From positions 942,501 to 1,006,500 of the forward strand of contig NZ_CP032418.1 of assembly GCF_003595195.1 (NCBI RefSeq): a stretch of DNA of 64,000 nucleotides, in the 5' to 3' direction. Under the pieces are notes generated by a model that did not search any database, was not told the origin of the DNA, and was given only the letters and a program-made list of their open reading frames with translations. The position numbers were made by a program, and so were the translations under genes. Shown here piece after piece: positions 14,951 to 26,079 of this stretch; within the stretch, counting starts at the first letter, position 1, and the number at the start of each line of letters is the position of its first letter. This stretch comes from Paenisporosarcina cavernae. Its GTDB lineage: Bacteria; Bacillota; Bacilli; Bacillales_A; Planococcaceae.

Positions 14951-15853
14951 ATGAGCGTATATATTAATAAAGATACGAAAGTAATCGTACAAGGTATTAC
15001 GGGATCGACTGCTCTTTTCCATACAAAACAAATGCTTGAGTATGGTACTAAAATCGTTGCAGGTGTTACACCTGGTAAAGGCGGTACTGAAGTAGAAGGC
15101 GTTCCTGTATTCAATACAGTAGAAGATGCAGTAAAAGCAACTGGCGGTAATGTGTCTGTCATTTACGTACCAGCTCCATTTGCAGCAGATGCAATTATGG
15201 AAGCAGTAGATGCTGATTTAGATATGGCGATCTGTATTACAGAACATATTCCAGTATTAGATATGGTGAAAGTAAAACGTTACATGGAAGGCAAGAAAAC
15301 TCGTCTTGTTGGACCAAACTGCCCTGGAGTTATCACTCCAGAAGAATGTAAAATCGGTATTATGCCTGGATACATTCACAAAAAAGGTCACGTAGGAGTC
15401 GTTTCTCGCTCGGGTACATTAACGTACGAAGCAGTTCACCAATTATCGCAAGAAGGTATTGGACAATCTACAGCTGTTGGTATCGGTGGAGACCCAGTAA
15501 ATGGTACTGACTTTATTGACGTTCTTTCTGCGTTTAATGAAGATCCAGACACGTATGCTGTTGTAATGATCGGTGAAATCGGTGGAACAGCTGAAGAAGA
15601 AGCAGCTGCTTGGATTAAAGCGAACATGACAAAACCAGTCGTAGGATTCATCGGTGGCCAAACAGCTCCAGAAGGAAAACGTATGGGCCATGCTGGTGCG
15701 ATTATTTCTGGTGGTAAAGGTACTGCGAAAGACAAAATCAAAGCAATGAACGATGCAGGCATGGAAGTTGCTCCAACTCCTTCTGTTATCGGTGAAACAT
15801 TAATCAAAGTGATTAAAGAAAAAGGCATTTACGACAAATGTAAAACTCATTAA
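14951..15853 (+). CDS. sucD: Succinyl-CoA synthetase, alpha subunit
   Basis: Alpha chain (300 residues) with the CoA-binding Rossmann domain ([16 protein letters not shown] near 14-29) and the phosphorylated active-site His247 in [10 protein letters not shown]. It pairs with SucC in the TCA cycle. The ribosome site is GGCAGGG. A strong terminator begins 10 bases after the stop codon, and then the first tandem repeat array begins. Confidence 0.98.
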
Positions 15854-15940: not shown

Positions 15941-16225
15941 AGTGTCCCAATGTTTGGGAAAAGTGTCCTAATGTTCGGGGAAAGTGTCCTAATCTTGCCG
16001 CGAAGAGTCCCAATGTTGCAGGAAAGTGTCCTAATGTTTGGGGAAAGTGTCCTAATGTTTGGGGAAAGTGTCCTAATCTTGCCGCGAAGAGTCCTAATGT
16101 TGACGTGAAGTGTCTTAATGTTGCCGCGAAGTGTTCTAATGTTGACGTAAAGTGTCCTAATGTTGCCGGAAAGTGTCCTAATGTTGCCGTGAAGTGTCCC
16201 AATTTCCGTCGAAAGCGTCCTATTA
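15941..16225 (+). repeat. 21-bp tandem repeat array 1 (13 units plus a partial)
   Basis: Thirteen direct repeats of exactly 21 bp (15941-16213) and a partial unit. The core AGTGTCCTAATGTT is nearly constant; the last seven bases vary (for example TGGGGAA, GCCGCGA, GACGTGA, GCCGTGA). Units 3-4 and 7-8 are near copies, so an 84-bp block was probably duplicated. Because 21 is divisible by 3, several frames stay open and give artefact reading frames on both strands, with no ribosome site or start context. The array lies between the sucD terminator and the dprA promoter. It is the same family as the array at about 24811, in opposite orientation. Function unknown. Confidence 0.97.
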
Positions 16226-16321
16226 TAGATTCGCACTTGGCATGCTATATTTCACACTGAAAATTATTCACTTCCGTCTTTTATTCCGCAAAACCCTAAA
16301 AACAAAACTTTACGCTATCTA

Positions 16322-16350
16322 TTTACCTTTATGCTGAAAATCACTATAGT
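16322..16350 (+). promoter_or_regulatory. Probable SigA promoter of dprA
   Basis: TTTACC (16322-16327), 17 bp, TATAGT (16345-16350), about 90 bp before dprA. The predicted transcription start is near 16357, right at the base of the hairpin at 16359-16382. Confidence 0.55.
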
Positions 16351-16358
16351 AAGAGTAG

Positions 16359-16392
16359 GCGGCGCATCAACCGATGTGTCGCTTTATTTTTC
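16359..16392 (+). terminator. Terminator-like hairpin at the 5' end of the dprA leader
   Basis: GCGGCGCATC (16359-16368) pairs over its whole length with GATGTGTCGC (16373-16382), with two G-U pairs and a 4-base loop, followed by the T-rich tract TTTATTTTTC. It sits just after the predicted dprA promoter and 50 bp before the gene, so it is either an attenuator, a 5' mRNA-stabilising hairpin, or a terminator for readthrough from the repeat region. Confidence 0.6.
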
Positions 16393-16441
16393 TTATGGTT
16401 ATTTGCTATTTCCTTGGTAATCACATGTTGGGAGGGAGTCA

Positions 16442-17335
16442 ATGAACACATCATTTGAAGAAAAATTGTTGGCACTACATTACGTATTTCCAGTTCCGTT
16501 AAATCGCATTCAATCGCTTTTAGAACGAGATCCTACACTGGATTACGTGGAAAAAATGAGCATTCCCCAGCTCGCATCTGTTTTAAAATTATCGTATGAT
16601 CGCTCAAAAAGATTGCAGCTTGCATACGCAAAATCTCTTCAAACTTCACTCCTCTCTGCTTATCAAAAACATTCCATTTATCCTATCTCTTATTTTCATT
16701 CCAATTATCCAATATCTCTAAAACGTCTATACGATCCACCTGGATTTTTATATGCAAAAGGTCAAATTTCTTATTTAAATGAGTCGAAATTTGTCGCTAT
16801 TATTGGATCTCGAGAAGCGGGAAGTTATTCAAAATTAGCGATGAAATTTATTATTCCACCACTTGTGAATGAAGGTGCTGTTATTGTTTCTGGAATGGCA
16901 AAAGGTGCAGACACGTTCGCTCATAAAGAAACCGATTTATTAGGTGGAAAAACGATTGGAGTTCTCGGTCATGGTTTTTTTCATCAATATCCAAAAGAAA
17001 ATGCGGCGTTATTCACTTCATTTGCTGAAAAACAGCTATTAATCACCGAGTATCCACCCTATGTGGGACCAAAAAAGTGGACATTTCCGCTTCGTAATAG
17101 AATAATTAGTGGCTTGTCCCAACTAGTAATCGTAACGGAAGCGAAAGAAAAAAGCGGGACTGTTAGTACTATGCAGCATGCGTTGGACAATGGAAAAGAA
17201 GTGTTTTGTGTGCCTGGACCGATATCCTCTCCATTATCAATTGGGCCACATCAATTATTATTAGAAGGTGCAAAACCTATATGGAATGGGTATCAAGCGG
17301 TGCTTGAATTACAAAATTCTTCCTTCGAGAAATGA
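16442..17335 (+). CDS. dprA: DNA-processing protein DprA (Smf)
   Basis: Loads RecA on incoming single-stranded DNA during natural transformation. It has 297 residues: an N-terminal helical region and an extended Rossmann fold with VAIIGSREAGSYSK (about 118-131), VSGMAKGADTFAH (about 154-166), FPLRNRIISGLS and AKEKSGTVST motifs. No C-terminal winged-helix domain is visible, as in other short Bacillus forms. The ribosome site GGAGGGAG lies close to ATG. topA follows after 90 bp. Confidence 0.96.
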   Translation: MNTSFEEKLLALHYVFPVPLNRIQSLLERDPTLDYVEKMSIPQLASVLKLSYDRSKRLQLAYAKSLQTSLLSAYQKHSIYPISYFHSNYPISLKRLYDPPGFLYAKGQISYLNESKFVAIIGSREAGSYSKLAMKFIIPPLVNEGAVIVSGMAKGADTFAHKETDLLGGKTIGVLGHGFFHQYPKENAALFTSFAEKQLLITEYPPYVGPKKWTFPLRNRIISGLSQLVIVTEAKEKSGTVSTMQHALDNGKEVFCVPGPISSPLSIGPHQLLLEGAKPIWNGYQAVLELQNSSFEK

Positions 17336-17425
17336 AAAATGGTTGCATTAATAAGAAAACTATTATACATTTTGCAACAGGACTTGTTACAGAACAATTT
17401 GTACCTCTACAGGGAGGAAATGATG

Positions 17426-19501
17426 ATGGCAGATTATTTAGTAATCGTAGAATCGCCAGCAAAAGCGAAAACGATTGAACGATATTTAGGAAAAAAGTAC
17501 AAAGTAAAAGCATCGCTCGGACATGTACGTGATTTACCACGTAGTCAAACTGGAGTAGATGTCGACAACAACTATGAGCCTCGATATATTACGATTCGAG
17601 GTAAAGGTCAAGTCATGCAAGAATTGAAAAGTGCAGCAAAAAAAGCGAAGAAAATTTATCTCGCAGCCGATCCAGATCGCGAAGGAGAAGCAATTGCGTG
17701 GCACTTAGCACATGCGTTAAATATTGATATACAATCCGATTGCCGTGTTGTATTTAATGAGATTACAAAAGACGCTATTAAAGAATCATTTAAACATCCA
17801 CGACCAATTGATATGGATTTGGTGGATGCACAGCAAGCGAGAAGAATTTTAGATCGACTTGTTGGGTATAATATCAGCCCTATTCTATGGAAGAAAGTCA
17901 AAAAAGGATTATCGGCTGGACGTGTTCAATCCGTTGCATTACGTTTAATTATTGACCGGGAAAATGAAATAAAAAATTTCACGCCTGAAGAGTACTGGTC
18001 CATCGATGGTCAGTTTGAAAAAGGAAAAAAGGCATTTGAAGCTTCTTTTTATGGTGCCGGAAAAGAGAAAGTGAAGTTAACAAATGAAGAGCAGGTTAAA
18101 GAAATATTAGGTAAGATGAAGGGCAATGATTTCAACGTCACGAAAGTTACGAAAAAAGAACGAAAACGAAATCCGGCTCCATCCTTTACAACTTCTTCTT
18201 TACAGCAAGAAGCTGCTCGTAAATTAAACTTCCGTGCACGAAAAACAATGATGTTAGCTCAACAACTTTATGAAGGTCTAAACATTGGGAAAGAAGGCAC
18301 AGTTGGGTTAATTACCTATATGCGTACTGATTCTACTCGAGTATCGGATACGGCAAAAACTGATGCAAAATCCTATTTAGAGGAAGCTTACGGCAAAGAA
18401 TACATTGGGAATGCGACACATGCTTCTAAAAAATCAGCAAAAGCGCAAGATGCTCATGAAGCGATCCGTCCTACAAGTGTCATGCGTCATCCTGATACGT
18501 TAAAAAATGTATTGTCTCGGGACTTACATCGATTGTACAAACTGATTTGGGAGCGTTTCATTGCCAGTCAAATGGCTCCCGCAGTATTAGATACGGTAGC
18601 AGTAGATCTTGAGAATAATGGAGTTGTATTCCGTGCAAATGGTTCACAAGTGAAGTTTGCAGGATTTATGAAGTTGTACGTAGAAGGTAACGACGATCAA
18701 GTGGAAGAAAAAGACCGTATTCTACCAGTAATGGTAGAAGGGGATGTCGTGAAAAAAATCGATTTAGATCCGAAACAACATTTCACACAACCACCTCCTC
18801 GCTACTCAGAAGCACGTCTTGTCAAAACATTAGAAGAGTTAGGAATAGGTCGCCCATCGACTTATGCCCCTACATTAGATACGATTCAAAAACGTGGGTA
18901 TGTTGCGTTAGATGCAAAACGTTTTGTTCCAACGGAGTTAGGTAGTATCGTCCATGAGCTTGTCTTAGAATTCTTCCCAGATATCATCAATATTGAGTTC
19001 ACTGCTCAAATGGAGAAAGATTTAGATGAAGTAGAAGAAGGACAACAGAAATGGGTTACGATCATTGATAATTTCTACAAGAAATTTGAAAAAGATTTAG
19101 CAATTGCTGATAAAGAAATGGAAAAAGTAGAAATCAAGGACGAGCCTGCTGGAGAAGATTGTGAGAAATGTGGCTCTCCTATGGTCTTTAAACTTGGCAG
19201 ATACGGTAAGTTTATGGCGTGTAGCAATTTTCCAGATTGCCGTAATACAAAGGCAATCGTAAAACCAATAGGCGTCGAATGTCCAACGTGTCATAAAGGG
19301 GAAGTAGTAGAACGTAAAAGTAAAACAAAACGAATCTTTTACGGATGTAATCGTTACCCTGAGTGTGATTTTGTTTCTTGGGATAAGCCAATTTCAAGAC
19401 CTTGTCCAAAATGTCAGTCCTTGTTAGTGGAGAAGAAGTTGAAAAAAGGCATTCAAATTCAATGTACATCTTGTGATTACAAAGAAGATGCTCAATCGTA
19501 A
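17426..19501 (+). CDS. topA: DNA topoisomerase I
   Basis: Type IA topoisomerase that relaxes negative supercoils. It has 691 residues from the ATG at 17426, which gives [22 protein letters not shown] and sits 8 bases after GGGAGG. An in-frame reading 29 codons longer starts before that site and adds unconserved sequence. Toprim motif DPDREG is at 82-87 and the catalytic Tyr298 in [10 protein letters not shown]. The C-terminus has three four-Cys zinc fingers ([24 protein letters not shown] and partners), the usual Bacillus number. Confidence 0.98.
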
Positions 19502-19525
19502 CAATAAAGAAAGTAGGTATATAAC

Positions 19526-20836
19526 GTGTCAGTATCAGTAAATGTAATAGGTGCAGGACTTGCTGGTAGTGAAGCTGCTTGGCAATTAGCGAAGAGAGGC
19601 GTGAAAGTACGTCTTTATGAAATGAGACCTGTACGTCAAACAGCAGCACATCATACAGACAAATTTGCAGAGCTAGTTTGTTCCAACTCATTACGAGCAA
19701 ATAATTTAACGAATGCGGTTGGCGTAATTAAAGAAGAAATGCGTCAACTAGATTCGATTATTATTCAATCAGCGGATAAATGTGCTGTACCTGCTGGCGG
19801 AGCTTTAGCGGTTGACCGCCATGAATTTGCAGCACATGTCACGGAAGCTGTGAAACATCATCCAAATGTCGAAGTCATTAACGAAGAAGTGACGGAAATA
19901 CCAGAAGGAATTACGATTATTGCGACTGGTCCACTTACTTCCACTGCATTAGCAGAAAAAATTCAACAATTGACTGGTCAAGACTATCTATATTTTTACG
20001 ATGCAGCTGCTCCAATCGTGGAAAAAGATAGTATTGATATGGATAAGGTTTACTTGAAATCACGTTATGACAAAGGGGAAGCTGCCTATTTAAATTGTCC
20101 AATGACAGAAGAAGAGTTTGACCGTTTTTATGATGCACTTATCTCTGCGGAAGTTGTGCCGCTCAAGGAGTTCGAAAAAGAGATTTACTTTGAAGGTTGT
20201 ATGCCGTTTGAAGTAATGGCAGCACGAGGCAAGAAAACCCTTTTGTTTGGTCCTATGAAACCAGTTGGATTAGAAGATCCTAAAACAGGAAAAAGACCTT
20301 ACGCTGTTGTCCAATTAAGACAGGATAATGCAGCTGGTACGCTTTATAATATCGTTGGTTTTCAAACGCACTTGAAATGGGGACCTCAAAAAGAAGTCCT
20401 TCAATTGATTCCTGGTCTGGAGAACGTAGAAATAGTGCGCTACGGTGTGATGCATCGCAATACATTTATTAATTCTCCAACCGTTTTGAAAAAAACCTAT
20501 CAATTACAATCGAATCCTTCCATCTTTTTTGCTGGTCAAATGACGGGGGTTGAAGGATATGTTGAGTCTGCTGGTAGTGGACTGATTGCGGGTATTAATG
20601 CAGCGAAATTAGCGCTGGGTGAAGAATTAGTGGAATTCCCTTCAGAGACGGCACTAGGTAGTATGGCTAGATACATTACAGAAGCGGATTCGAAAAACTT
20701 CCAGCCGATGAATGTGAACTTTGGATTATTTCCGGATTTACCAAAAAGAATTCGTTCGAAAGCGGAAAGAGCGGAAGCACATGCTAATCGTGCATTAGAT
20801 ACAATTCAAAATTTTAAGAAAACACTAGACATTTAA
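19526..20836 (+). CDS. trmFO: Folate-dependent tRNA U54 methyltransferase TrmFO
   Basis: FAD-dependent enzyme that makes m5U54 in the tRNA T-loop with methylenetetrahydrofolate as carbon donor; formerly Gid. It has 436 residues. The FAD dinucleotide motif [17 protein letters not shown] is at about 10-26, followed by the conserved [11 protein letters not shown] and a [11 protein letters not shown] motif. The start is GTG at 19526 with AGTAGGT about 7 bases upstream. It ends with a strong terminator, so it is separated from xerC. Confidence 0.98.
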
Positions 20837-20842
20837 TTTGAG

Positions 20843-20881
20843 AAAAGCTTCTACTTATTGCTATAATGTAGAAGCTTTTTT
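20843..20881 (+). terminator. Rho-independent terminator after trmFO
   Basis: AAAAGCTTCTAC (20843-20854) and GTAGAAGCTTTT (20868-20879) form a perfect 12-bp stem with a 13-base loop and a T tract. Because the stem ends in A:T pairs it may serve both strands. Confidence 0.92.
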
Positions 20882-20903
20882 GTATAGAAAGGCGGTGGCA
20901 AGG

Positions 20904-21800
20904 ATGAGTAATTTACCTGAAGGTGTAAAAGAATTTTGGGAATACATACAACTGGAAAAAAACTACTCCGTCCATACGATTCGAGAATACGAAAGCGACT
21001 TAGCAGAATTTATTGCGTTTTTAACTCGGGAAGGAATTTCATCTCCAAAGGACATTGAATACCGTGATGCACGACTATATGTGACAGAACTATATAATAA
21101 AAAATTAAAACGGACGACTATTTCCCGAAAAATATCGGCTATTCGTTCGTTTTATAAATTTGGAAATAGACAGTATGGCTGGAAAGAGGATGCATTTCGG
21201 TCTCTCTTTCATCCGAAAAAAGAAGAAAGACTACCTCACTTTTTTTACGAAGAGGAGTTAGCAAAATTATTTGAAACAGTCGAGGGTGATGATTTTCTTT
21301 CGATTCGTAATCGTGCAATTTTAGAACTCCTTTACGCAACGGGAATGCGTGTAAGTGAATTAACGGGACTGACACTTCGTGATGTGGACGTCCGAATTCA
21401 AGTCGTAAAAGTTATGGGAAAAGGCAGAAAAGAACGGTATATTCCATATGGTCAATTTGCGCATGATGCATTGGAAAGGTATTTGGAACATTCGCGACCA
21501 AAGCTAATGAAAAATGCCTCCCATCAACAAGTCTTTGTCAATCAAAAAGGCGATCCGTTAACCGATCGGGGAGTTCGGTATATTTTGAATGAATTAATGA
21601 AAAAATGCTCCTTACAAACAAAAATTTATCCCCATATGCTTCGGCATACATTTGCCACTCATTTATTAAACAATGGAGCTGACATGCGAACGGTGCAAGA
21701 GCTACTAGGGCATAGTCACTTGTCATCTACTCAAGTCTATACGCATGTTACAAAAGATCACTTACGAGCTACATATTTACAATCGCACCCACGTGCGTAA
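20904..21800 (+). CDS. xerC: Tyrosine recombinase XerC (CodV)
   Basis: Chromosome-dimer resolvase acting with XerD at dif. It has 298 residues from the ATG at 20904, with AAAGGCGG 8 bases upstream; an upstream in-frame TTG would begin inside the trmFO terminator. An N-terminal SAM-like core-binding domain ([16 protein letters not shown], about 21-36) precedes the catalytic domain with R149, K173, H244-R247, H270 and nucleophile Y279. All six residues are present. It is the first gene of the xerC-hslV-hslU-codY operon known from B. subtilis. Confidence 0.97.
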
Positions 21801-21820
21801 TTGGAAGGAGAAATTCATTT

Positions 21821-22366
21821 ATGGGAGAAATACATGCAACGACAATATTTGCTGTTCAACATAAAGGGAAAGCTGCGATGGCAGGAGATGGACAAGTAAC
21901 ACTAGGAAATCAAGTAGTTATGAAACATACCGCTAAAAAAGTTCGCCGATTATTTAATGGAAATGTATTAGCCGGATTTGCGGGATCAGTTGCAGATGCG
22001 TTTACATTATTTGAAATGTTTGAAGCAAAATTACTGCAATACAATGGCAACTTGAGCCGCGCGTCAGTCGAATTAGCTAAAGAGTGGAGAAGTGACAAGA
22101 TGCTTCGTAAACTAGAAGCCATGCTACTTGTCATGGATAAAGAAACGCTTCTTCTTGTATCGGGTACTGGGGAAGTAATTGAACCAGACGATGGAGTGTT
22201 AGCAATTGGATCAGGTGGGAACTACGCGCTAGCAGCAGGTCGAGCTCTAAAACAGTATGCAGGTGATCAATTGTCAGCTGAGGAGATGGCGAAAGCAGCA
22301 TTAACGACTGCTGCCGATATATGCGTATTTACAAATCATCAGATTATCGTGGAGGCGCTAAATTAA
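21821..22366 (+). CDS. hslV: ATP-dependent protease subunit HslV (ClpQ/CodW)
   Basis: Peptidase ring of the HslUV protease (181 residues). The proteasome-like fold is seen in [23 protein letters not shown] and [14 protein letters not shown]. The N-terminus is [10 protein letters not shown]. The B. subtilis protein begins MSSFHATTIF and was reported to use an N-terminal Ser; here residue 2 is Gly, so catalysis by Thr after removal of a short propeptide, as in E. coli, is more likely. The stop overlaps the hslU ATG by one base. Confidence 0.97.
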
Positions 22367-23763
22367 TGACTAAAGATATGTATACACCGAAAGAAATCGT
22401 GCAGTATTTAGATCGGTCCATTGTAGGTCAAGCGGATGCGAAAAAATCGGTTGCTATTGCACTACGAAATCGCTACCGTCGTAGTATGCTTCCAGAAGCA
22501 TTAAAACAAGAAGTAATCCCTAAAAATATACTAATGATTGGACCAACAGGAGTCGGAAAAACGGAAATCGCTCGTCGTATTGCCAAATTGACAAAAGCTC
22601 CATTCATCAAAGTGGAAGCGACGAAATTTACGGAAGTTGGCTACGTTGGAAGAGATGTTGAATCGATGGTCCGCGATTTAGTGGAATCTAGTGTTCGTTT
22701 AGTGAAAGAAGAAATGATGGAGCAAGTGAAAGCAGAAGCAGAAGTTATGGCGAATGAAAAAATTGTTCGCTTACTCGTTCCGGCATTAAAGAAAAAACAA
22801 GCATCCAACAATCCCTTCGAAATGCTTTTCCAACAAAAGGTGGAGAATGAAGAAGAAACGGAACTCGAAGACACGGAAATTCGAACGAAACGTTCACAAG
22901 TTGCAGAGGACTTGAAGAATGGCAAATTAGAAAATGAATATGTCACCGTAAGTATTACCGAACAACCTTCTAATTTGTTTGACGCTATTCCAGGCGCAGG
23001 AATGGATGGAATGGGACAAAACATGCAAGATGCATTGTCTCAGTTAATGCCGAAGAAAAAAACAAAACGCAAGCTCCAAGTGAAAGATGCACGAAAAGTA
23101 TTAATTACAGAAGAAGCATCCAAGTTAATTGATAAAGAAGAACTTCACGCCACCGCTGTAGAAAGAGCAGAACAACATGGGATTATCTTTATCGATGAAA
23201 TGGACAAAATAGCATCAAAAGGTGGAAGTGGGTCTTCTGCTGACGTTTCACGAGAAGGTGTCCAGCGTGATATATTGCCAATCGTTGAAGGATCCACTAT
23301 CCAAACGAAATATGGTGCGGTGAAAACGGATTATGTTTTATTCATCGCAGCAGGTGCATTCCACATGTCAAAGCCTTCTGATTTAATCCCAGAGCTTCAA
23401 GGTAGATTTCCTGTTCGAGTAGAGCTTGAAAAATTAACGAAGAATGACTTTGTTCGGATATTGCAAGAACCGGAGTATTCTTTAATTGAACAATATAGAT
23501 CACTCCTTGCTACAGAAGAAGTGGAAATTACATTTAGTGAAGAAGCACTCGAGAAAATTGCGGAAATAGCAACTGAGGTAAACGAAGCTACAGACAACAT
23601 CGGCGCACGAAGATTGCACACGATATTAGAGAAGCTTTTAGAGGAATTATCCTATAAAGCATCGGATATTGGTCCGGCAACGATCGAAATCACACCAGCA
23701 TATGTCGAAACAAAACTACAAAAAATTGCAAAAAACAAGGATTTGTCACAATTTATACTTTAA
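22366..23763 (+). CDS. hslU: ATP-dependent protease ATPase subunit HslU (ClpY)
   Basis: AAA+ unfoldase that feeds HslV (465 residues from the ATG at 22366, with GGAGGCG 8 bases upstream). Walker A GPTGVGKT is at 59-66, and Walker [10 protein letters not shown] lies in the second half. An I-domain insertion (about 110-240) contains acidic and Met-rich segments. The extra in-frame codons upstream overlap hslV and are not family sequence. codY follows after 85 bp. Confidence 0.98.
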
Positions 23764-23848
23764 TTGAAATAATTTCACTTCCAAAAACGATTAAAAACCT
23801 TTAGAATATTTAATAAATAACTGTTTTTCAAAACAGGAGGCCAACAGA

Positions 23849-24628
23849 ATGAATTTATTGGAAAAAACAAGAAAGATTAACTCGATGCTTCAAGCTTCTG
23901 CAGGTAAGCCGGTTAACTTTAAAGAAATGTCGACAACCTTAAGTAATGTCATTGAGTGTAACGTTTTTATCGTTAGCCGTAAAGGGAAACTTTTAGGTTT
24001 TGACATTAACCAACAAATCGACAATGATCGTATGATGAAAATGATGGAAGAAAAACAATTTCCTGAAGAGTACACTAAAAACTTGTATAAAGTGAGTGAA
24101 ACATCATCGAACCTAGATGTATATAGCGAGCACACAGTATTCCCTGTGGAAAACCGTGAACTTTTCAAAGATGGTTTAACAACAATTGTACCAATTATCG
24201 GTGGTGGAGAACGTTTAGGAACACTGATTCTTGGAAGATTAAAACAAGAATTTGAAGACGATGATTTAATCCTTGGAGAATACGGCGCAACTGTAGTTGG
24301 TATGGAAATTCTACGCGAGAAATCCGAGCAAATCGAAGTAGAAGCGCGTAGCAAAGCAGTAGTTCAAATGGCAATTAACTCACTTTCATACTCTGAGCTA
24401 GAAGCAATTGAACATATTTTCGAAGAACTAGATGGAAATGAAGGATTACTTGTTGCATCTAAGATCGCAGACCGCGTTGGAATCACTCGTTCGGTTATCG
24501 TAAATGCCCTTCGCAAACTTGAAAGTGCAGGCGTAATCGAATCGCGATCTCTAGGAATGAAAGGAACGTACATTAAAGTACTAAATGACAAATTCCTTTA
24601 TGAACTATCCCAATTGAAACTACGTTAA
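23849..24628 (+). CDS. codY: GTP- and BCAA-sensing global repressor CodY
   Basis: Transcription factor that represses amino-acid uptake, biosynthesis and, in B. subtilis, the fla/che promoter when GTP and branched-chain amino acids are high. It has 259 residues: a GAF ligand domain (1-155), a linker helix, and a winged HTH ([21 protein letters not shown], about 203-223). The ribosome site is AGGAGG. It lies directly upstream of the flagellar operon, its known target, but I find no clear AATTTTCWGAAAATT box there. Confidence 0.98.
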
Positions 24629-24634
24629 AAAATT

Positions 24635-24674
24635 AACCCGTAAACGGATGATCAACATCTGTTTGCGGGTTTTT
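24635..24674 (+). terminator. Rho-independent terminator after codY
   Basis: AACCCGTAAACGGATG (24635-24650) pairs with CATCTGTTTGCGGGTT (24656-24671) along all 16 positions (two G-U pairs) with a 5-base loop and a T tract. It is the strongest terminator in the window. Confidence 0.95.
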
Positions 24675-24810
24675 ATATTCTACACTTTTAAATAGAAGAA
24701 ATTCATAGAAAGGGGATGATTGAATATGGCGAGTATGTATTCTAAATGGATTGAACGTGCTTGATTGGCAGATAAGACTGAGGCAATTATAGAGTGTTTC
24801 ATAAGAGATT
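24675..24810. other. Gene-free stretch before array 2
   Basis: No supported gene. A 12-codon reading frame (ATG near 24726, after AAAGGGGATG) ends in TGA and may be a gene remnant or chance. No promoter of good quality is visible. Confidence 0.5.
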
Positions 24811-25241
24811 GAGACACTTACGGCGAACATTAGAACACTTACGGTGAACAATAGGACACTTACGGCGAACATTAGGACACTTACGGCGAACATTAGGACA
24901 CTTACGGCGAACATTAGGACACTTACGGCGAACATTAGGACACTTACGGCGAACATTAGGACACTTACGGTGAACATTAGGACACTTACGGCGAACATTA
25001 GGACACTTACGGTGAACATTAGGACACTTACGGCGAACATTAGGACACTTCCGGTGAACATTAGGACACTTCCGGTGAACATTAGGACACTTACGGCGAA
25101 CATTAGGACACTTTCCGTGAAGTTTAGGACAATTTCGAAGAACATTGGGACACTTGCACCGAACATTGGGACACTTGCACCGAACATTGGGACACTTGCA
25201 CGGAACATTGGGACACTCTCCCTCAACACTAGGACATCTTT
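24811..25241 (-). repeat. 21-bp tandem repeat array 2 (20 units plus a partial)
   Basis: Twenty direct units of exactly 21 bp (24811-25230), then a decayed partial. Read on the minus strand the unit starts with the same core, AGTGTCCTAATGTT, followed by CGCCGTA, so it is the array-1 unit in opposite orientation. Units 3-7 are identical; units 8, 10, 12 and 13 carry single substitutions; units 17-19 form a distinct subtype; unit 20 and the end are degraded. Several frames stay open as heptapeptide repeats. The substitutions change the amino acid in each of the three long frames I checked, so coding is unlikely. GC is about 48% in the common unit, above its surroundings. Confidence 0.97.
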
Positions 25242-25689: not shown

Positions 25690-26079
25690 TTGAGTATTTT
25701 CAGTGGAACCATTCAAAACTTGGAAAATGGGTTACAATATTCGACAACTAAACAGAAAACAATTGCGCAAAATATCGCAAATGTTGATACTCCTAATTAC
25801 AAAGCAAAAGATGTGACCTTCGAGCAGTTTTTTCAGCGAGCGAAGCAGGCATCCTTGCCAGCATACCGGACCAATGACAGGCATTTTGACTTTAAAATGC
25901 GTGATTATTCTCCGGGTGTTTTTAATTACGCAAATATCCGTTACCGTCAAAACGGCAACGGTGTAGATATGGACAAAGAACAAGCTAACTTGGCGACAAA
26001 CCAAATTTATTATAATGCACTAATTGATCGTGTAAATGGAAAGTTAAATTCATTACAAACGGTTATTAAAGGAGGCTAA
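25690..26079 (+). CDS. flgB: Flagellar proximal rod protein FlgB
   Basis: Rod subunit next to the MS ring (129 residues), exported by the flagellar type III system. The rod-family motif is clear: IAQNIANVDTPNYKAKDVTF (about 25-44). The start is TTG at 25690 with GTGGGGTG upstream; the N-terminus MSIFSGTIQNLENGLQYS fits B. subtilis FlgB. It is the first gene of the fla/che operon; the stop overlaps a possible flgC start. Confidence 0.96.
   Translation: MSIFSGTIQNLENGLQYSTTKQKTIAQNIANVDTPNYKAKDVTFEQFFQRAKQASLPAYRTNDRHFDFKMRDYSPGVFNYANIRYRQNGNGVDMDKEQANLATNQIYYNALIDRVNGKLNSLQTVIKGG

Follow-up and report, generated by a model that had tools for sequence, protein, structure and literature searches.

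Dispersed 21-bp repeat arrays in Paenisporosarcina cavernae and a candidate cognate gene encoding a NERD-domain protein

The 64,000-nucleotide stretch of the Paenisporosarcina cavernae chromosome analysed here (the window; NZ_CP032418.1, positions 942,501 to 1,006,500) contains two arrays of a 21-bp tandem repeat with a common core, AGTGTCCYAATGTT. These arrays are probably dispersed copies of the binding array of one cognate protein with a NERD nuclease domain, whose gene lies ~0.73 Mb away. Gene and arrays would thus form a unit resembling repetitive extragenic palindromic (REP) sequences and their REP-associated tyrosine transposases (RAYTs), assembled from unrelated parts. The evidence is drawn from sequence and consists of the dispersal of the arrays in the genome that holds the window, the adjacency of NERD genes and arrays in the loci sampled, the covariation of core and protein, the conservation of catalytic-type residues, a spacer that is free to vary and the helical phasing of the units. 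Satellites with 20-21-nt units have been described before; the pairing of gene and array is new.

A NERD gene between two arrays with the window core

The genome that holds the window (designated G000) is a single contig of 2,537,131 bp. The NERD gene is encoded on the minus strand (C1:1699787-1700755) and is bracketed by two arrays that have the window core, at 1,699,434-1,699,706 and 1,700,895-1,701,209. When 680 open reading frames (ORFs) from array loci were clustered, one cluster of ~320-aa proteins had members in the loci of nine species, encoded ~0.1 to 4.4 kb from an array. All five of the proteins scanned with Pfam contain the NERD domain (PF08378; E 9e-12 to 2e-21, 46 to 77 bits as compared to a curated cut-off of 22.1) and none has a Y1 transposase domain; one has a sub-threshold match (E 0.00046) to the zinc-binding domain of IS91 transposases. 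Catalytic-type D-E-K residues are retained in 93 of 96 NERD proteins and all 96 have the four cysteines of a zinc ribbon. The last 60 residues could form a winged helix, a guess from sequence and a structural model; a search of the PDB returned no real relative.

A profile built from nine aligned proteins, scored on at most 8 candidates per genome, matches sequences in 237 of the 261 genomes of the family as defined by GTDB (E <= 1e-15), with 1 to 8 matches in each. G000 has six long NERD copies, one with an internal stop (L404, G000:C1:574203-575117), and one fragment (L408, 80952-81185), so that the NERD family is also decaying in this genome.

Arrays are located next to most sampled NERD genes

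An array was recorded when a 7-mer was repeated at least 3 times at 18-22 bp, or multiples thereof, within 1.5 kb on either side of a gene. The first sample was the best match in each of the 30 top genomes of the profile list, and 28 of these 30 loci have an array. By comparison, an array is present in 4 of 60 control stretches, which are equal in length and were taken at round coordinates from 20 of those genomes (Fisher P 9e-17). The nine genes used to build the profile are all among the 30; without them, arrays are present at 19 of 21 loci (P 1e-12). In a second sample of 60 loci, taken from the 120 of 150 listed rows not yet represented by a locus, by skipping 10 with stops and picking the rest by hand, 54 have arrays. 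An array is also present at a NERD locus of Gracilibacillus orientalis, a species outside the family, and at four of the five further NERD copies in G000; the fifth, L406, has only weak 20-bp repeats, as detected by Tandem Repeats Finder (TRF). The total is then 87 of 96 loci. The arrays at these loci have a period of ~21 bp, like those of G000, but a different core, and 961 of 1,236 spacings are 21 bp in a tally into which, in the main, only spacings of ~18-22 bp could enter. No report linking NERD genes to tandem repeats was found among the titles and abstract openings that searches of the open-licence PMC literature listed.

The array is downstream of the gene at 78 of the 87 loci and upstream at 36, and the motif has the same orientation on both sides at 30 of the 31 loci where it occurs on both. 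The median distance from the stop codon to a downstream array is 69 bp and from an upstream array to the open frame 95 bp. Such proximity is consistent with a regulatory arrangement, in which the NERD protein binds the flanking array for autoregulation, or to be held in a harmless state, and in which dispersed arrays act as additional sinks that sponge up a dangerous nuclease, which might be set free in defence against phages. The many diverged NERD copies per genome would fit such a role, as would the weak similarity of the NERD region in two of four proteins to the defence proteins PglW, MAD6, MkoA and HEC-02B, found in a scan in which neither the G000 protein nor that of locus L134 had a match. 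A downstream location is, however, odd for an operator, and regulation alone does not account for arrays at 22 loci in G000, so that we consider this explanation unlikely. Nor do the proteins resemble the NERD defence proteins closely: the matches to the PglW (of BREX) and MAD6 profiles are far below the curated cut-offs, and these are longer kinase models (1,391 and 612 positions), whereas the proteins described here have ~320 residues, a zinc ribbon, no kinase match and a link to repeat arrays.

The core varies with the protein

Many different cores are present at the NERD loci, including TGTCCGATA, GGTGATAA, CGGTGGTAA and CGCTCATA, and also GACCATAT, GGCCGATT, TCTAGATT and GCACGTAA, and individual genomes have several private cores. 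For the 85 loci with at least 5 units, protein identity and core similarity are correlated (Mantel r 0.31; P 0.0005, the minimum attainable with 2,000 permutations), and the core similarity of nearest neighbours is 0.65, as compared to 0.28 overall. To guard against simple local descent, flanks were compared with the arrays masked. Among protein pairs that are 50-80% identical and lack flank homology, 135 of 268 have similar cores, as compared to 46 of 2,952 pairs with <40% identity. Some close protein pairs nevertheless have unlike cores (L466/L481, L444/L459, L465/L476 and L385/L380). Two of the four control stretches that have an array carry the core of a NERD copy from the same genome (L413/L377 in G166 and L422/L457 in G171); for the other two, in G189 and G175, the single NERD copy fetched does not match. 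With few copies sampled per genome, the data from G000, G225, G226, G244, G202 and G190 are compatible with an array abundance that follows the cognate gene, but L382 in G248 is not.

These results bear on another interpretation, namely that the arrays are neutral minisatellites, products of slippage tolerated between genes, with NERD genes merely located in repeat-prone regions. The units within an array are alike, as slippage predicts, and 176 of the 261 family genomes lack the TGTCC triple described below. The difference between NERD loci (19 of 21 and 54 of 60) and controls, the covariation of core and protein without flank homology, and the recurrence across genera of a ~21-bp period with a conserved core and free spacer all argue against this interpretation, and it must be regarded as extremely improbable.

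Several observations weigh against the pairing of arrays with cognate NERD proteins. Both samples were drawn from the top of a hidden Markov model (HMM) list built on nine proteins encoded near arrays, and nine of the 96 loci (L382, L399, L406, L433, L434, L439, L447, L470 and L483) have no array by the rule used; L433 is cut at a contig end, and L382 lacks an array in a genome, G248, with 43 TGTCC triples. The gene found first in G166, G184 and G238 is 2-4.4 kb from a TGTCC array, and the NERD gene near the TGTCCAAC arrays of G184 has its own, different core beside it (L375), which makes one of the nine first adjacencies non-cognate. A second ORF cluster, ABC-transporter-like by eye, was also represented in nine species, which we put down to the size of that gene family. 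With profile matches in 237 genomes, the presence of the gene alone does not predict dispersal, and the cores of the other five NERD copies in G000 form no arrays in the 317 kb covered around the first family and the window. The Mantel test does not correct for shared ancestry, and the flank-filtered comparison does so only in part. The NERD part of the protein covaries with the core as well as the C-terminal part does (Mantel r 0.32 and 0.26, respectively), so that covariation gives the C-terminal part no special place. The model of the L134 protein, in which this part has an H-H-H-E-E order, has a mean pLDDT (predicted local distance difference test) of 43.6, too low to show the fold.

A candidate mechanism for array growth and dispersal

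The unit proposed is the gene for a ~320-aa protein together with a direct-repeat array that follows it closely and is, in many cases, matched by another in front. Such a protein has a PD-(D/E)xK-like NERD nuclease domain, a four-cysteine zinc ribbon and the putative C-terminal winged helix, and would read a core of ~8-10 bp. With one core per 21 bp, all bound copies would be on one face of the DNA, and binding along the array may be cooperative. Nicking or cutting by the NERD domain could stimulate slippage or recombination within arrays, resulting in their growth and homogenisation, and arrays might occasionally be copied ectopically to new intergenic sites, as proposed for the action of RAYTs on REPs. 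Nuclease action would make the arrays recombinogenic, which would explain both the homogenisation within arrays and their spread. Some paralogs may have an array at the gene only, whereas the core of the paralog behind the window arrays is present at 20 loci in addition to the two at its gene.

The adjacency in most sampled loci suggests that each of these enigmatic satellites of bacteria is served by a DNA-binding nuclease of its own. A broader proposal, that the 20-21-nt satellites of Bacillales as a class are the cognate targets of a large and diversifying family of NERD nucleases, an independent solution of the REP/RAYT kind, is possible and is offered more as a suggestion than as a conclusion. 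The pairing of gene and array, if correct, would explain a fixed unit length with a variable sequence, and would add a genome resident of the REP/RAYT type based on a different nuclease fold. As each gene carries its own target sites alongside, the NERD family would be a natural library of a recognition code, relating protein sequence to DNA cores of 8-10 bp, with dozens of protein-site pairs from which DNA recognition might be decoded. With a gene that is located beside such arrays in most sampled loci, and a core that covaries with the protein, the question of what these satellites are is reduced to one binding assay.

Anatomy of the repeat unit

Each unit is a conserved core followed by a spacer that differs between arrays. 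In the 335 units that score 11/14 or more for the core, positions 1-6, 9 and 10 are nearly invariant and position 8 is either T or C, whereas positions 15-19 vary between arrays. Averaged over 23 array consensuses, positions 1-14 have an entropy of 0.17 bit and positions 15-19 one of 1.53; selecting units by core score biases this comparison towards the core, but TRF, which makes no such selection, yields the same core for the window arrays. Spacers are more alike within an array, often in higher-order patterns, so that growth seems to be local to each array, with a core that stays the same from array to array. The period in G000 is 21 bp, with a few units of 20 or 22 bp. Twenty-one base pairs are two turns of the DNA helix. 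The G000 core is not self-complementary.

A coding repeat is unlikely. The period is divisible by three, and 16 of the 25 array blocks in G000 are overlapped by ORFs of at least 100 aa, but units of 20 and 22 bp are present in some of these arrays, and of 19-22 bp at NERD loci, open frames occur on both strands, and the arrays are intergenic. Most of the overlapping ORFs are mainly array. A 515-aa ORF at 435,819 is not, and by our own reading it more likely starts ~70 bp past the array, where there is a sequence, GGAAG, resembling a ribosome-binding site. A CRISPR array was also considered and rejected, as spacers recur within an array and the window has no Rfam match at the gathering threshold; cas genes were not searched for.

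Distribution in the P. cavernae genome

The core occurs in G000, allowing one mismatch, at 115 sites on the forward and 106 on the reverse strand, as compared to one match for the reversed pattern. In total, 25 blocks of at least 3 units are present at 22 loci, with 355 units that span 7.5 kb. Blocks were called in the window and in 20 stretches around core matches, and several match lists were combined, so that an array of weak units only could have escaped this count, from which a lone core copy at 1,078,323 and a chance chain at 1,818,902 were left out. ORFs that overlap arrays were set aside before the neighbouring genes were named, which makes the intergenic placement partly a matter of construction. 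The flanks of the arrays share no counted element, as might have indicated a shared mobile flank, except a palindrome near some of them. This dispersed palindrome, GATTTTCGGCTAGCCGAAAATC, has A/T-rich sides and is located beside or between several arrays (L315-L318, L325 and L329), near 257, 358, 416, 436, 1816 and 1956 kb, and resembles a separate repeat or a shared terminator.

With the origin assumed to be at base 1 and the terminus opposite, the arrays follow the leading strand at 17 of the 22 loci (P 0.017). The initial annotation of the window had held that orientation is not tied to transcription; relative to the leading strand, on this assumption, it is not wholly free. This strand preference, and a unit of two helical turns, might be expected if protein-bound arrays served to organise the chromosome, by stabilising the nucleoid or marking the ends of transcripts, as Subirana and Messeguer proposed for an unknown protein. 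An apparent excess of arrays between convergent genes (8/22 as compared to 12/80, P 0.035) fell to 7/22 (P 0.12) when one misclassed locus, that of the 515-aa ORF at 435,819, was corrected, and is not claimed. A genus-wide role is also contradicted by eight genomes of the same genus that have no such arrays, nuclease-type residues would be needless in an architectural protein, and individual genomes have several private cores; chromosome organisation is therefore a very unlikely explanation.

Related genomes and wider searches

None of the eight same-genus genomes (G001-G008) has arrays of the G000 kind, or even pairs or triples of GTGTCC, and a function common to the genus is accordingly less likely. 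There are only traces: a single copy of the core 14-mer in G005 and another in G006, and in G003 one TGTCC triple, of another type. Of the 261 genomes of the GTDB family, 16 have a GTGTCC triple at 20-21-bp steps and none has the reversed control. For the looser TGTCC triple the number is 85 of 261, with up to 205 in one genome; the reversed control matched fewer genomes, with a maximum of 8 per genome (G174). The family is the one that includes Chryseomicrobium, usually called Planococcaceae and listed as Caryophanaceae by NCBI, and a contig of Chryseomicrobium aureum has the repeat. The 21-bp step and, for the most part, TGTCC are shared by units in other genera, whose remaining bases differ, as in AGTGTCCAACnAA, AGTGTCCGATA, AGTGTCTAGATTA and AATACTGTCC. 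Contigs in two draft assemblies end in or near arrays (C45, C66, C84, C85 and C88 of G202 and C143 of G244), and array counts in these assemblies are consequently too low.

Many short elements are present in G225 and G226 (L345-L351), each with a leader that contains a hairpin, GCCGA-TAAAT-TCGGC, followed by 3-11 units; they are often paired ~150 bp apart with a conserved linker, and in the seven stretches examined all have the same strand. In a syntenic stretch in which these two genomes are 98.3% identical, they differ at 2 of 324 core bases and 12 of 435 spacer bases (P 0.03), with 4 differences in 285 leader bases and 205 in 11,936 other bases.

At the level of the class, the GTGTCC form was found in 3 of 398 genomes, including G000, and its reversed control matched 2, so that outside the family this form is at background. 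A wide pattern scan of genome contigs was too loose, with many chance matches, and was used only for Bacillales examples; among the matches it listed, a gene encoding a NERD-zinc protein is present at one (L134) of 120 loci. A NERD search in another family, for which there was no positive control, was negative (0/23). Two cyanobacteria, Westiellopsis (L068) and Nostoc (L069), have 21-bp arrays of AGTGTCCTTACGACAAAAGTT with no NERD match in the 8-kb loci; they are possibly unrelated. Carriage by plasmids (no match with three queries) or phages (no match with one query, a tblastn search with one protein that could miss distant relatives) was not detected. The 99 stretches of viral contigs selected by the scan, examined by HMM only, gave no NERD match, and a further search for relatives was also empty.

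Comparison with known repeat systems

The initial annotation could not assign the arrays to a described family. They do fit one, the prokaryotic satellites of 20-21 nt described by Subirana and Messeguer, for which PMC8161180 gives 22 to 29 per genome in Bacillus weihaiensis, B. simplex and B. muralis, remarks on the two helical turns, proposes an unknown protein or small RNAs and describes the function as unknown. As in that paper and in PMC6749651 and PMC8625621, the tandem unit is of constant length, the sequence is private to the species, there are several families per genome and a short signal is conserved; the G000 arrays have a 20-21-nt unit, a private family (22 loci, none in eight same-genus genomes) and a conserved core. 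Unlike the published satellites, each family here has a candidate cognate gene, with which the signal covaries. Neither "NERD" nor "nuclease" occurs in the main texts of these three papers.

The likeness to REPs, BIMEs (bacterial interspersed mosaic elements) and REPINs with their RAYTs is in arrangement: cognate extragenic repeats flank the gene, repeat and protein covary, several kinds occur per genome and the repeats are dispersed between genes. According to PMC2817692 and PMC3116915, RAYTs belong with the tyrosine transposases of the IS200/IS605 type, and the REPs on the two flanks of the gene are palindromic and inverted relative to each other. Here, in contrast, the enzyme would be a NERD nuclease with a zinc ribbon, flanking arrays have the same orientation, and the repeats are non-palindromic, tandem and helically phased; the leader of the G225/G226 elements does contain a hairpin. 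As enzyme type, inverted flanking repeats and palindromes are all lacking, the system would work like REP/RAYT without being a member of that group.

The window arrays and their gene setting

The arrays and their neighbours in the window, with the genes named by Pfam, the arrays delimited by chaining and the hairpin located by a terminator scan, are as follows:

14951..15853, + strand, sucD-type succinyl-CoA ligase gene; stop 87 bp upstream of array 1
15941..16234, + strand, array 1; 14 units of 21 bp, core AGTGTCCYAATGTT
16442..17335, + strand, dprA; begins 208 bp past array 1
23849..24628, + strand, codY; stop 169 bp short of array 2
24635..24671, + strand, terminator-like hairpin 3' of codY and upstream of array 2
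24798..25238, - strand, array 2; 21 units of 21 bp, core AGTGTCCYAATGTT
25690..26079, + strand, flagellar basal-body rod gene; first gene past array 2

Both arrays are intergenic, array 1 between sucD and dprA and array 2 between codY and the flagellar rod gene. TRF, chaining and core matches agree with the initial annotation that there are two 21-bp arrays with a shared core, on opposite strands and ~9 kb apart; the 13 and 20 units it counted become 14, the final ones degenerate, and 21 by chaining. The bounds from TRF are 15941-16203 and 24813-25217. The spacers of array 1 are mostly GCCGxxA or TGGGGAA and those of array 2 mostly CGCCGTA. Allowing two mismatches, the core AGTGTCCTAATGTT matches the window 31 times, as compared to 0.48 expected from shuffles, and 30 of these matches are inside the two arrays.

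Taken as a whole, the earlier interpretation is partly supported. It had placed a strong terminator before each array: that of codY was found by the scan, whereas the one after sucD can be seen by eye but is absent from the scan list. A new promoter past each array is not apparent, as promoter-like matches in the region are at chance level (25 as compared to 25.9 expected). The position of the arrays on either side of the dprA-codY block is incidental, as these are two of 22 loci; under random placement, 1.6 neighbour gaps of at most 9.5 kb are expected and 3 are present (P 0.22), and 2.15 of at most 12.5 kb are expected and 5 are present (P 0.046). A genome-wide search for further arrays, which had been suggested, was positive, and the 22 loci bear out a dispersed element over local slippage alone. 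Absence of arrays both elsewhere in the genome and from close relatives had been named as making a shared role unlikely; close relatives do lack them, but the genome has others. An RNA element was rejected, as the window has no Rfam match at the gathering threshold and the predicted folding of RNA from its two arrays is not better than that of shuffled sequences (z +1.4 and +2.1). A role at the DNA level, or a selfish satellite, is the better class of explanation, as had been favoured. The arrays are dispersed and probably functional or selfish at the level of DNA. Elsewhere in G000, at 487.6 kb (L319), an array is bracketed by two near-identical hairpins (a 31-base match, 90%), as if a terminator had been duplicated around the array.

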